Counted from the stretch's first letter, positions 60,261-64,000 are shown. The stretch: DNA of 64,000 nucleotides from Conexibacter sp. DBS9H8 (GCF_023330685.1 NZ_CP097128.1:2852001-2916000); one strand, 5' to 3'. Made by a program: numbers and translations. Notes: a model not told the origin generated them from the letters alone.

Positions 60261-61484
60261 GTGTGCTGTGGGTGTGTGGGGGTGGCGGTGCCGCGGAAGA
60301 CAGCGGGCACCACATGCCGGGGGGGCCGCGACCTGGTAGGGACGGCATGTGTGATCGCAGCGGCGCTGTTGCTCCTCAGCGCGGGCGTATCGAAGCTGCG
60401 CCTCCACCGTGGCTCCCGGGGCGCGGCGCCGGACACCGCGTCGGCGTTCTCCGGTGGGCGGCATGCGCTTGAGGCGAGCCCCTGGTGGGCGACGGCCGAG
60501 CTGATCGCTGGACTGGTCGTCCTCCTTTCCCCTCCGCCCTTTGGCGCGGCGCTGGCGGCGTTCCTGTTTCTCACCTTCGCCGCCGTCCACGCGGGAGATC
60601 TGCGCGCCGGCGACCCTCCGTGTGCCTGCTTCGGCGCGCGTGGAGCCGCCTCCCCGGCGCGGGGCATGACCCTCTGTGGCGGGTTCGCGGGGCTGTGTGG
60701 TCTGTCCGCATGGCTGGGTTATCCCGGCCTCCCCACCCTGTCCCGGGCGGGAGGCCTCGACGTGGTGGCGGTGGTGGCGGTGGCCGGCCTGCTGTCGGCC
60801 GTGTGGCGGTGGGCCTTCAGCGCGCAGCCGGGGACTGCGGGACCGAGCCGGAGTTCTGCGGGCCCGCGCGCACGGGACCTGGTTGATCTGTCGGCGCGGT
60901 GGGTTGAGCGTCACTCCTCCCGGCGTGACTTTCTGCTCCGCCTGGCGGTGGTCGGGTCGGCCCTTGCGGTCGCGCCGTTGCGGTACCTGCTCTATCCCGG
61001 CCCGGCGCTGGCGATCCTCGCGCCGCCGGACTGTCCGGGCGGCCTCTGCGCCAACGGGTACACGGGCTTCTGTTGTGAGATCACACCCGGCCACGTCAAC
61101 ACCTGCCCGGAGGACACCTTTCCCGGCGGCTGGTGGATGTGCACCGATTACAGCGGCCGCCAGCTGTGCGCGGACGCCGGGGTCCGTTACTACGTCGACT
61201 GCAACGCGCTGCTGGGACGGCCGTTTCCCGGCGGCTGTCACTGTGGTGATGACAACTGTGATCAGTACCGGATCAACTGCAACATCTTTCGCTACGGACA
61301 GTGCAACACGGAGGTTCCGGGGGTGACGGCCGTGGTCTGCCGGATGGTCGTGTGTGAGAACCCGGCGACCATCGACGGGCTGCACTGCAGCGCCGCGCTC
61401 GCGGTGGATGACGCAACCTGTGATCAGGAGGCACCGTGCCTCGAGCCTCCGGCGGTCGCAGTGACCGGGGCCGGTGGCGTATGA
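60261..61484 (+). CDS. MauE-like membrane domain fused to a Tat-type, cysteine-rich MADH light-chain-like domain
   Basis: 407 residues in three parts. Residues about 25-188: four hydrophobic helices of the DoxX/MauE type with the CACFG motif at 121-125. Residues 215-250: a hydrophilic lead and the twin-arginine motif SSRRDFLL (R221-R222) before a hydrophobic stretch ending near PGPALA. Residues 258-393: 18 cysteines, with CPEDTFPGGWWMC, YYVDCNALLG and FRYGQCNTE, resembling the methylamine dehydrogenase light chain. Only W291-W292 match a TTQ tryptophan position; the second seems to be absent. The start is uncertain: GTG 60261, with AGAGAGG just upstream, or GTG 60276, 60282 or 60288. A TTGACT at 60199-60204 may be its -35 box. 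Confidence 0.82.
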   Translation: MCCGCVGVAVPRKTAGTTCRGGRDLVGTACVIAAALLLLSAGVSKLRLHRGSRGAAPDTASAFSGGRHALEASPWWATAELIAGLVVLLSPPPFGAALAAFLFLTFAAVHAGDLRAGDPPCACFGARGAASPARGMTLCGGFAGLCGLSAWLGYPGLPTLSRAGGLDVVAVVAVAGLLSAVWRWAFSAQPGTAGPSRSSAGPRARDLVDLSARWVERHSSRRDFLLRLAVVGSALAVAPLRYLLYPGPALAILAPPDCPGGLCANGYTGFCCEITPGHVNTCPEDTFPGGWWMCTDYSGRQLCADAGVRYYVDCNALLGRPFPGGCHCGDDNCDQYRINCNIFRYGQCNTEVPGVTAVVCRMVVCENPATIDGLHCSAALAVDDATCDQEAPCLEPPAVAVTGAGGV

Positions 61485-62236
61485 CTGTCGCGACCGTTCT
61501 CCTCACGGCCGGACTCGCGGTCGCGCTCCTGTTCATCGTCGCCCTGCTGCGGTCCCATGCCGAGATCCTGCGGCGGCTGATGAGCCTCGAAGCGGCGCTC
61601 GGCGACCCGGTCCCGGAGCGGACCTCGGCGGCGTCCCCCCGGTTCGGAGAACCATCGCCCTCTCATCGGCCGACCGGCGGATCGGCGCCGGACATCTTCG
61701 GTGAGACCCTCGCCGGTGACGCGGTGAAGCTGTCCCTCGATGCGCGACACGGCCGGACCCTGCTGGCCTTCCTCAGCAGCGGGTGTCAGGCCTGCCGGCC
61801 GCTCTGGAGTGAGCTCCCCGACGGCCGCGCGCGGACGGCGGCTACCCGGGTCGTCCTCATCACCAAGGGAACGGACCGCGAAAGCCCGGCGCGGTTGGCG
61901 GAGCTCGCCCCCGCCAACTCGGAGGTGATCATGTCAACCGCCGCGTGGCGGGACTTTGCGGTGCCCTCCAGTCCGCACTTCGTCCTCGTCGATGGCGGTG
62001 AGATCGCCGGCCGCGGGGCCGCGACGAGCTGGGAGCAGATCGCTTCGCTGCTCGCGGATGCCGGCGAGGATCACCGCGTCAGCCAAGCCCGCAACACCTC
62101 ACAGCGCGCGGCCCGGGCCGAGCACGCGCTCGCGCGGGCCGGGATCGGCGCCGACCATCCCAGCCTCTACCCCTCTCGGAAGGTGACGCCCGGGGCGGCC
62201 CCGGACACGCGGACTCAGGAGGGTGATCCGTCGTGA
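61481..62236 (+). CDS. MauD-like membrane-anchored thioredoxin
   Basis: 251 residues from the ATG that overlaps the preceding stop (ATGA). One N-terminal membrane helix (about 3-23), a short linker, then a thioredoxin fold with the pair C102-x-x-C105 in SSGCQACRPLW and the cis-Pro segment VPSSPHFVLVDGG near 161-173. The last 55 residues are a polar tail. In methylamine dehydrogenase clusters MauD, with MauE, is needed for disulfide formation in the light chain; the same pairing is seen here. Confidence 0.85.
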   Translation: MTVATVLLTAGLAVALLFIVALLRSHAEILRRLMSLEAALGDPVPERTSAASPRFGEPSPSHRPTGGSAPDIFGETLAGDAVKLSLDARHGRTLLAFLSSGCQACRPLWSELPDGRARTAATRVVLITKGTDRESPARLAELAPANSEVIMSTAAWRDFAVPSSPHFVLVDGGEIAGRGAATSWEQIASLLADAGEDHRVSQARNTSQRAARAEHALARAGIGADHPSLYPSRKVTPGAAPDTRTQEGDPS

Positions 62237-62901
62237 GCCAGACCCTGTGGATCGCCGTCGGGGTTGCGGTCGCGGTTCTCGGCGCACTGCGGGCCGCCTT
62301 CTCCCCGTGCGGGCAGTCGATGCTCGCGAGCCTGACCCCGTACGCTGAGGCCGCACGCGGCTCACGGTGGGCGGTCACCGCTGCCGCCTTCTCACTCGGC
62401 GCGGTGCTCGCCGGCGCGGGCACGGGAGCGGGATGGGGCCTCATCGGTGGGCTGCTCCCACCCGGGCAGTGGCGGCTCGTCGCTGCCGGAGTCGTGCTCC
62501 TGCTCGCGCTTGTGATCGACGCGACCCCGCTGCGCCGGCGCCTGCCGCTCGTGCGCCGGCAGGTCAATGAGGACTGGATGGTCACCTACCGGGGGTGGGT
62601 GTACGGGATCGGATTCGGAGCCCAGCTGGGCTGCGGTTTGATCACCCTGGTCGCATGCGCGGCGATTTATGCCAGCTTCGGTATCGAGCTGCTCGCCGGC
62701 CGCCCGCTCACCGGACTCGTCATCGGGGCGGCCTTCGGCGCAACGAAGGCTGCGTCACTGCTGCCCGCCGGCCGTGCGACGGACTCCCGCACCCTCATCC
62801 GCCTGCATCGCCGCCTGCTCGCGCTCGAATCCCTCAGTGTTTCCGCGGTCGTCGCCGGCGAGCTGCTTGCGGTGCTGATCCTCGCTTCCGCCCTCACCTG
62901 A
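62233..62901 (+). CDS. CcdA/DsbD- or MauF-like membrane protein
   Basis: 222 residues with about six membrane helices. Cys26 in AAFSPCGQSM in the first helix and Cys134 in GAQLGCGLITL in a later helix (plus Cys142) match the paired membrane cysteines of CcdA/DsbD, which carry electrons across the membrane. The GTG overlaps the thioredoxin stop by four bases. In this setting it would recycle the MauD-like protein. Family membership is judged from the SPC/GCG cysteines and topology and is not firm. Confidence 0.75.
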   Translation: MSQTLWIAVGVAVAVLGALRAAFSPCGQSMLASLTPYAEAARGSRWAVTAAAFSLGAVLAGAGTGAGWGLIGGLLPPGQWRLVAAGVVLLLALVIDATPLRRRLPLVRRQVNEDWMVTYRGWVYGIGFGAQLGCGLITLVACAAIYASFGIELLAGRPLTGLVIGAAFGATKAASLLPAGRATDSRTLIRLHRRLLALESLSVSAVVAGELLAVLILASALT

Positions 62902-62918
62902 GCGCTCCTGCCGCGGCG

Positions 62919-63356
62919 ATGGAACTGAGAGGCCATGGGCTCGCGATCACCCTGCCGGCCGGTTGGGAGGGCCGGATCAGCCGCCGCGGGTCGGGTCCGG
63001 TCCTGCATGCGGCCACCTTTCCCCTGCTGTCCAGTGACGGTGACTTCGGATCGGCGGCGACCGGACGGATGGCTGACGGGGACAGCTTCCTCACCCTCGT
63101 TGAGTACGTCGACCCTGACCAGATCCGCCCCGGGCGCGGCCTGTTCGCTGCGTCCCGGCCGAGAGGGGTGGCCGTCCGGGAGTTCGGCGCCATGCAACTT
63201 CAGGTCACCCGGCGCGGCCAGCTCGGCTGGCAGCGGTTCTTCACCGAGTCAGGGCGTACCTGCTGCCTGTACGCCGTCCTCCAACCGGGGCCCGTCCCGG
63301 CCGCTCAGCTCGTGGCCGTCCTCAACCGGGTGCTCGCCGCGCTCGTCATCTCCTGA
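62919..63356 (+). CDS. Conserved protein of unknown function, linked to the mau-like locus
   Basis: 145 residues from the ATG at 62919, 17 bases after the CcdA-like gene. Beta-rich: MELRGHGLAITLPAGWEGRI, VLHAATFPLLSSDGDFGSAA, FLTLVEYVDP, QRFFTESGRTCCLYAVLQPG and a C-terminal helix. No signal peptide or membrane helix, so it probably stays in the cytoplasm. I recall similar proteins beside such loci in Thermoleophilia, but no function is known. Confidence 0.7.
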   Translation: MELRGHGLAITLPAGWEGRISRRGSGPVLHAATFPLLSSDGDFGSAATGRMADGDSFLTLVEYVDPDQIRPGRGLFAASRPRGVAVREFGAMQLQVTRRGQLGWQRFFTESGRTCCLYAVLQPGPVPAAQLVAVLNRVLAALVIS

Positions 63357-63373: not shown

Positions 63374-64000
63374 TCAGGCCCCGGGGGGAGCGTCAGCGTT
63401 CGGCGTTGTCGGCGCCGGCCCCGGCGTGGTGTTGGTTGCCGGCGGCGCTGTCGTCGTCGTCGCCGGGGAGGTTCCGGTCGGGCTTGTCAGCGTCACCGTC
63501 GTCGTCGTTGTCCCGGATGACGGCGGCGGGGCGGGAAGCGCTGAGCGCAGTGTGCCCGTATAGACACCGGCGTCGTGGCTGGGCCCGAGCGGACAGCGCG
63601 TCATGTCAGTGCGGGAGCGGTTCAGGTAGCGGGCGCCGATCGCCGTCGCGTACCGGATCGACCCGACGAACACGCTTCTGGTCACCCACAGGCTGAGCGT
63701 GTAGGGCACCCGGCTGCCGTGCCGGTCCACCCGGCCGAGACAGCGCAGCGCGACAAAGAAGCTGCCGCGCCCCTCATAGACCCCGGACCGACGCGCCGCC
63801 AGCCACACCGTCGCCTCACGGCCCGCTCCCAGTGCCCGCCGCACGCGCAGCCGCGCGCAGCCCAGTGACCCGCAGCCCGTTCCCGTGATCACCCACACCC
63901 GACGGATCCGCTCACCGGCGTGCTCGCCGCGTACGTTGACCGCGACGGTCACGCGGGCGCTCATCAGAAAGGTGCCGCTGATGACCGCCTGCCTCGTCCC
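63374..64000 (-). CDS. Secreted Thr/Pro-rich protein (5' end beyond the window)
   Basis: At least 208 residues; the frame is still open at the window edge, and the region before ATG 63964 (GTFLM-SARVTVAVNVRG) reads like the same beta-sheet domain, so the true start is probably outside. The domain has two cysteine pairs (GCGSLGC; LRCLGRV...TRCPLG) and ends in about 60 residues of Thr/Ser/Pro repeats, a cell-surface-type tail. Convergent with the mau-like operon, 17 bases away. Function unknown. Confidence 0.6.
   Translation of the reverse strand, partial: GTRQAVISGTFLMSARVTVAVNVRGEHAGERIRRVWVITGTGCGSLGCARLRVRRALGAGREATVWLAARRSGVYEGRGSFFVALRCLGRVDRHGSRVPYTLSLWVTRSVFVGSIRYATAIGARYLNRSRTDMTRCPLGPSHDAGVYTGTLRSALPAPPPSSGTTTTTVTLTSPTGTSPATTTTAPPATNTTPGPAPTTPNADAPPGA

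Follow-up and report, generated by a model that had tools for sequence, protein, structure and literature searches.

Mau clusters and an operon of Conexibacter

In Paracoccus denitrificans the mau cluster (mauFBEDA, amicyanin, mauJG; locus L021) encodes in one operon MauF, MauE and MauD together with a cysteine-rich substrate of the twin-arginine (Tat) export type. Both MauE and MauD are essential in that system, and MauE is thought to form the disulfides of the light chain of methylamine dehydrogenase (MADH) (van der Palen 1997, as cited in PMC7794033). Clusters combining MauE and MauD with Cys-rich precursors, in the absence of MADH, have already been noted in Streptomyces (decRiPPter, PMC7794033); neither MauF nor selenocysteine (Sec) is mentioned in the passage concerned. 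Here we describe an operon of four plus-strand genes at positions 60261-63356 of a 64,000-nucleotide stretch (the window) of the genome of Conexibacter sp. DBS9H8, which codes for MauE-, MauD- and MauF-type proteins and a Cys-rich client that, unlike the Streptomyces precursors, is a large conserved domain. In contrast to the Paracoccus cluster, operons of the window type lack MauB, MauG and amicyanin and carry an extra gene (g4), their client has no conserved second Trp, and in most relatives MauF is predicted to contain selenocysteine. The features of the locus, with their basis, are as follows; structure predictions are AlphaFold2 (AF2) models, graded by predicted local distance difference test (pLDDT), and the hairpin is one resembling a selenocysteine insertion sequence (SECIS).

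60261..61484, + strand: gene 1, with a MauE-like membrane domain (residues 26-151), a Tat signal (residues 220-251) and the Cys-rich client domain (Pfam MauE, TIGR01409, open reading frame)
61026..61481, + strand: Cys-rich client domain with 18 Cys and an invariant GWW (alignment A1, 56-sequence set; no Pfam, NCBIfam or PDB match)
61131..61136, + strand: invariant Trp-Trp codons, W36-W37 of the client domain (56/56 sequences; hhalign register CPPGT..SW over CPEDT..GWW)
61481..62236, + strand: gene 2, a MauD-like membrane-anchored thioredoxin-fold protein (NCBIfam MauD, E=5e-7, under the equivalog cut-off)
61784..61795, + strand: CxxC (CQAC) of gene 2 (sequence; GCxxC kept in homologues)
62233..62901, + strand: gene 3, a MauF-family membrane protein, Cys form (hhalign to proteobacterial MauF; AF2, pLDDT 83; Foldseek)
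62308..62310, + strand: TGC (Cys26) in SP-C-G, where most homologues have TGA (Sec) (alignment)
62311..62358, + strand: site of the SECIS-like hairpin of Sec homologues, lost in the window copy (folding; covariation in Sec forms)
62919..63356, + strand: gene 4 (g4), a predicted protein of about 145 residues with an LPxGWEGRI motif (adjoins most loci of this client type)

Much of what a sequence-only reading of this stretch had described was confirmed, namely four genes in a row, of which the first three share four bases at each junction (ATGA, GTGA), a MauE-like domain in one reading frame with an 18-Cys domain, a MauD-like thioredoxin with a CxxC motif, and no adjoining gene for MauB, MauG or amicyanin. 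None of the three was found in the fetched homologous loci either, and the 12 kb following the window, where a mauB/mauG pair was looked for, hold AddAB-type helicases and housekeeping genes instead. A survey of 16 carrier genomes for co-occurrence gave no match to the MauB profile, and the positive controls of the same search were silent too, so that the absence of MauB is probable rather than proven. The gene order MauE, client, MauD, MauF, g4 is kept among relatives, and since the operon recurs at other loci and in many further genomes, a chance origin is excluded. Judged from these comparisons, the window operon probably is a self-contained mau-like machine that works without an amine dehydrogenase.

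A predicted selenocysteine codon in the MauF family

The family profile of gene 3 aligns with six proteobacterial MauF sequences over 207 columns (hhalign, E=6e-31), WSPCG lying over WSPCG, and by this homology gene 3 is a true MauF. Its AF2 model is good; in Foldseek the first-ranked structure was CcdA (5vkv, probability 0.33, E=0.83), which is not significant, and Pfam gave no match to a CcdA family. Like CcdA, the transmembrane domain of DsbD and ScsB, it is of the membrane thiol-electron carrier type with an SPCG-like motif in a helix region; unlike them, it belongs to the MauF branch and conserves a single Cys/Sec where they have two. The kinship to CcdA/MauF claimed from the sequence alone stood for MauF. 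The paired membrane cysteines are a peculiarity of the window copy, the second of them (GCG) being absent from all 11 other homologues in the alignment.

The MauF profile (alignment A2) matched 71 of 399 genomes sampled from the class and 62 of 396 from the phylum, most having exactly one internal TGA. This lone TGA stands where the window has TGC, within SAW-SP-TGA-G(E/Q)SML. Among 62 distinct sites there were 51 with TGA, 11 with TGC or TGT and none with TAA or TAG; the otherwise invariant WSP-C-G hence reads WSP-UGA-G in 51/62 homologues, and both the frame and the membrane helix run on at either side. The 20 codons preceding the TGA contain no other stop, show the highest conservation at position 2 and the lowest at position 3, and are hydrophobic in this frame only, and several TGA-form genes have a ribosome-binding site ahead of a start about 23 codons upstream. 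The TGA form was found in 47 of the 396 sampled Actinomycetota genomes (about 1 in 8), and the Sec form extends across many families of the phylum and to Thermomicrobium roseum. In one contig (L009, 2036-2500) the start of mauF is duplicated, probably as an assembly artefact.

Downstream of the UGA the Sec forms share a hairpin, the 5' arm of which starts 26 nt past the TGA and the apical GGN loop about 34 nt downstream, in agreement with the published model of the bacterial SECIS (bSECIS; PMC13188914). In 26 distinct sequences 92.3% of the cells are paired, as against 77.3% in shuffles, 29 cells have double-sided changes (8.3 in shuffles), and all slid registers fail. Sec forms fold more strongly than their synonymous codon shuffles (mean z -1.37), Cys forms scarcely so (-0.32). 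A loose bSECIS rule, which asks for G at loop positions 1 and 2, a distance of 16-37 nt between UGA and loop, and a minimum free energy <= -7.5, admits 50/51 Sec forms but also 8/11 Cys forms; it was rejected as a discriminator, failing to separate the two in G+C-rich DNA, and covariation is for this reason the stronger test. The MauF gene of T. roseum has a different hairpin with no z-score excess.

Genomes with the TGA form have selA more often than those with the Cys form. In the phylum sample selA was present in 45/47 TGA-form genomes, 1/9 Cys-form genomes and about 186/334 of those without MauF, and in the class sample in 32/39 and 13/27 genomes of TGA and Cys form; combined, this amounts to 77/86 against 13/30 (Fisher p=1e-6, only indicative because the sampled genomes are related). 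Genes for selA and selB are adjacent in 8/14 carriers; in one of these, L002, the MauE-client gene lies only two genes away from them. ARAGORN detected a tRNA-Sec with UCA anticodon in five carriers. SelA, SelB and tRNA-Sec are all represented among hosts of the gene 3 family, with gaps in some metagenome-assembled genomes (MAGs). Rfam matches to tRNA-Sec of about 39-50 bits were set aside, those checked being tRNA-Ser. Taken together, these comparisons of sequence indicate that the UGA of the MauF homologues almost certainly encodes selenocysteine.

The window's own gene carries TGC, and in its genome (one contig, 3.6 Mb) neither selA nor selB was found above the cut-off, the best Rfam tRNA-Sec match being a tRNA-Ser. 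As the MauF tree requires three changes between the Sec and Cys states and places the window within a Cys clade of five rows, its TGC is most simply read as a replacement of Sec by Cys.

Neither NCBIfam nor Pfam has a model covering Sec-MauF, and it is not listed in a catalogue of 119 selenoprotein families (PMC13188914, 2026); our literature search reached subscription journals only in part. It appears to be a widespread selenoprotein that annotation has overlooked by taking its UGA for a stop. The selenoprotein TsoB (NF045694; PMC13188914) also places Sec in a DsbD-like protein, yet differs by its UxxxxU motif and rhodanese fusion, and NCBIfam, which includes NF045694, gives no match to Sec-MauF. 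The family would add a membrane-embedded MauF type to the bacterial selenoproteome, and its naturally occurring Sec and Cys forms could be compared to learn what benefit selenium brings to a transmembrane disulfide carrier.

The Cys-rich client and its neighbours

Residues 258-393 of gene 1 contain the 18 Cys of the client domain, which the sequence-only reading had taken as resembling the MADH light chain. That likeness did not hold up as stated: a hidden Markov model (HMM) search with the light-chain profile PF02975 matched neither the domain nor any of 12 members of its family, nor anything else in the window genome, and searches of Pfam, NCBIfam and PDB yielded no unrelated known family in its place (a match to 4ntw at E=0.11 was dismissed as a chance match of Cys). 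A scan of genome contigs recovered 11 relatives; every one came from an actinobacterial MAG, and several of the MAGs bear the label Solirubrobacterales. Wider searches brought the total to 56 sequences, a few of which are almost the same. The domain spans about 150 residues; GWW is present in 56/56 sequences, and RY, DC, FRYG and most of the Cys are invariant or nearly so. By this evidence the client constitutes a new family. In other actinobacterial families it occupies the N-terminus of proteins of about 450-570 residues with LGFP repeats, and weak matches suggest FG-GAP fusion partners as well. The C-terminus reads GG(A/V) in most close relatives (window 61440-61481, L002-L009) and might serve as a signal for processing or attachment.

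A direct hhalign comparison of the client with the MADH light chain gave E 0.008, and E=0.0011 in co-linear register when the light chains of T. roseum served as a bridge; with client HMMs, neither MauA nor the light chains of T. roseum scored above shuffled noise. Structure prediction, which had been suggested as a further check, gave a poor AF2 model (pLDDT 47), for which Foldseek ranked the MADH light chain first (E=3.4, not significant), and with such a model this fold match is only a hint. The tryptophan tryptophylquinone (TTQ) of MADH comprises the pair Trp57 and Trp108, and no second Trp is conserved across the 56 client sequences, so that the client does not belong to the TTQ proteins known so far; its GWW may be the best candidate counterpart of Trp57. 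From these alignments the client is at most a distant relative of the light chain. The client could in principle be a surface redox enzyme in which oxidation or cross-linking of the invariant Trp-Trp pair yields a new protein-derived cofactor, and whose maturation requires the selenocysteine MauF, but this seems to us quite unlikely.

The cluster on the T. roseum plasmid (NC_011961, about 474-490 kb; L020/L026) resembles that of the window in having MauE, a MauD-like protein and a MauF, the last with TGA where the window reads TGC. It differs in that one of its light chains passes the PF02975 threshold (36.2 bits) and both keep, by alignment, the second Trp (NWC) in addition to the first; their matches to MauA have E-values of 5e-12 and 2e-8 (test set with 20,000 shuffles). 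A tblastn search of this plasmid with the client domain returned noise only. The cluster includes two MADH-light-chain genes (one unannotated) and several large secreted neighbours with weak matches to pyrroloquinoline quinone (PQQ) propellers, its MauE being fused to one large secreted protein with such a weak propeller match, and the annotated MauF starts at a downstream Met, hiding the TGA.

A second Tat client type (GxWYRCC...DCC) was observed in Thermoleophilia (loci L061, L062, L064, L069, L072 and L117), accompanied by a fused MauE-MauD and by MauF in the Sec or Cys form; it has no significant link to the first type (hhalign E=0.15). No locus of this second type has g4, whereas g4 stands beside most loci of the first type across the phylum. 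Judging by this association g4 is a core member of the operon, and it matches no known family in Pfam or NCBIfam.

As to the remaining genes, the MauE domain of gene 1 scores 28.4 bits against PF07291 (cut-off 27). Whether translation begins at the GTG at 60261 is uncertain; homologues start near residue 26. The fusion to the client is real but atypical: most homologues have separate overlapping genes, and the unfused client of most relatives bears a Tat signal of its own, whereas that of gene 1 is internal (TIGR01409). The match of gene 2 to MauD is weak (TIGR02661, 29.4 bits against an equivalog cut-off of 188.6), and by this score it is a distant relative of MauD only.

A proposed thiol-disulfide relay and its alternatives

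Based on these observations we propose that the operon probably specifies a dedicated, often selenium-based thiol-disulfide relay together with its one client, and that the mature client is a cell-surface module rather than a subunit of an amine dehydrogenase. The Cys-rich domain, which has the appropriate signal, would be exported by Tat, and MauE (a membrane protein with CxCFG) and the MauD-like thioredoxin (CxxC) would form its many disulfides or rearrange them. MauF, a CcdA-like membrane protein with a single chalcogen, would by its family and context pass electrons across the membrane to the relay, such that oxidation proceeds via MauE and MauD while electrons arriving through MauF correct wrong bonds; by analogy with mau the three would constitute a closed relay that serves a single Tat client. 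In most relatives the UGA at WSP_G is almost certainly decoded as Sec through the hairpin directly downstream, and in the window lineage Sec would have been swapped for Cys and the hairpin lost. Selenocysteine speeds thiol exchange and resists over-oxidation, and in MauF it would be expected to do both. The earlier view of a self-contained machine that exports and oxidises its own Cys-rich protein, in a role other than amine oxidation, is retained here except for the word oxidises, which is too narrow because the presence of a MauF/CcdA-type protein points to an arm that reduces or isomerises. If the proposal is correct, mau maturation proteins accompany an entire class of exported Cys-rich proteins that have nothing to do with methylamine, and the operon offers a simple system for testing the roles of MauD, MauE and MauF.

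Several points count against this proposal. Within a single lineage, three MAGs (G177, G632 and the closely related L012/G259) have a TGA-form MauF and yielded no selA, nor was selB found in them (loci L017 and L012), and the hairpin of this lineage has one broken pair; G177 and G632 are about 80% complete, and it is possible that these are incomplete bins or cases of ongoing or recent loss of Sec decoding. Likewise tRNA-Sec was not found in some carriers having selAB, their assemblies being incomplete, and no selB was found on the T. roseum plasmid, the plasmid being the only part searched. Moreover, the direction of electron flow, the relation of the relay to its substrate and the function of the client are matters that we infer. 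If the TGA of the relatives were a true stop, MauF would have to be translated from a downstream Met; such a Met does occur a few codons past the TGA, and it is where the public T. roseum annotation begins. We consider this extremely improbable given the covariation of the hairpin, the coding signature upstream of the TGA and the association with selA, besides which Cys homologues read straight through the site and a stop there would remove the sole invariant Cys.

The other alternatives concern what the relay does. It could be purely reductive, like ScsBCD or CcdA-TlpA, with the Cys-rich protein as a redox-active electron acceptor such as a surface antioxidant, a reading favored by the many near-invariant Cys of the client, by the fast thiol exchange that selenium generally permits and by the ranking, not significant, of CcdA as the fold nearest to MauF. 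It is nevertheless unlikely, as the Cys pattern of the client looks structural, the domain is fused to repeat domains, and the same three kinds of proteins serve a structural Cys-rich subunit in mau (van der Palen 1997, as cited in PMC7794033). The invariant GWW, the weak co-linear profile match to MauA through the T. roseum bridge and the first rank of the MADH light chain in Foldseek would fit a divergent amine dehydrogenase, whose client carries a Trp-derived quinone and whose heavy chain is encoded elsewhere. The lack of a conserved second Trp, the negative MauB search of the 16 carriers (with its silent controls) and the absence of MauG and amicyanin nearby make this very unlikely. It is likewise very unlikely that the locus is a biosynthetic cluster like those for ribosomally synthesized and post-translationally modified peptides (RiPPs), in which MauE, MauD and MauF would modify a Cys-rich precursor to be cleaved to a secreted peptide: decRiPPter did list MauE/MauD clusters of Streptomyces whose precursors contain 8 or more Cys (PMC7794033), but a conserved 150-residue domain with a Tat signal, found elsewhere in large repeat proteins, and an operon without protease or peptide exporter speak against it.

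Two further observations concern the surroundings of these operons. In L002 (2971-7090) a MauE-client fusion occurs without adjacent MauD or MauF, and is followed by a polysaccharide deacetylase and selB-selA. On the minus strand of the window (63374-64000), and in L013 (7374-8123), there is a gene whose secreted product combines a GTFxM domain with a tail rich in Thr and Pro; its relatives lie beside the operon in L004-L007.
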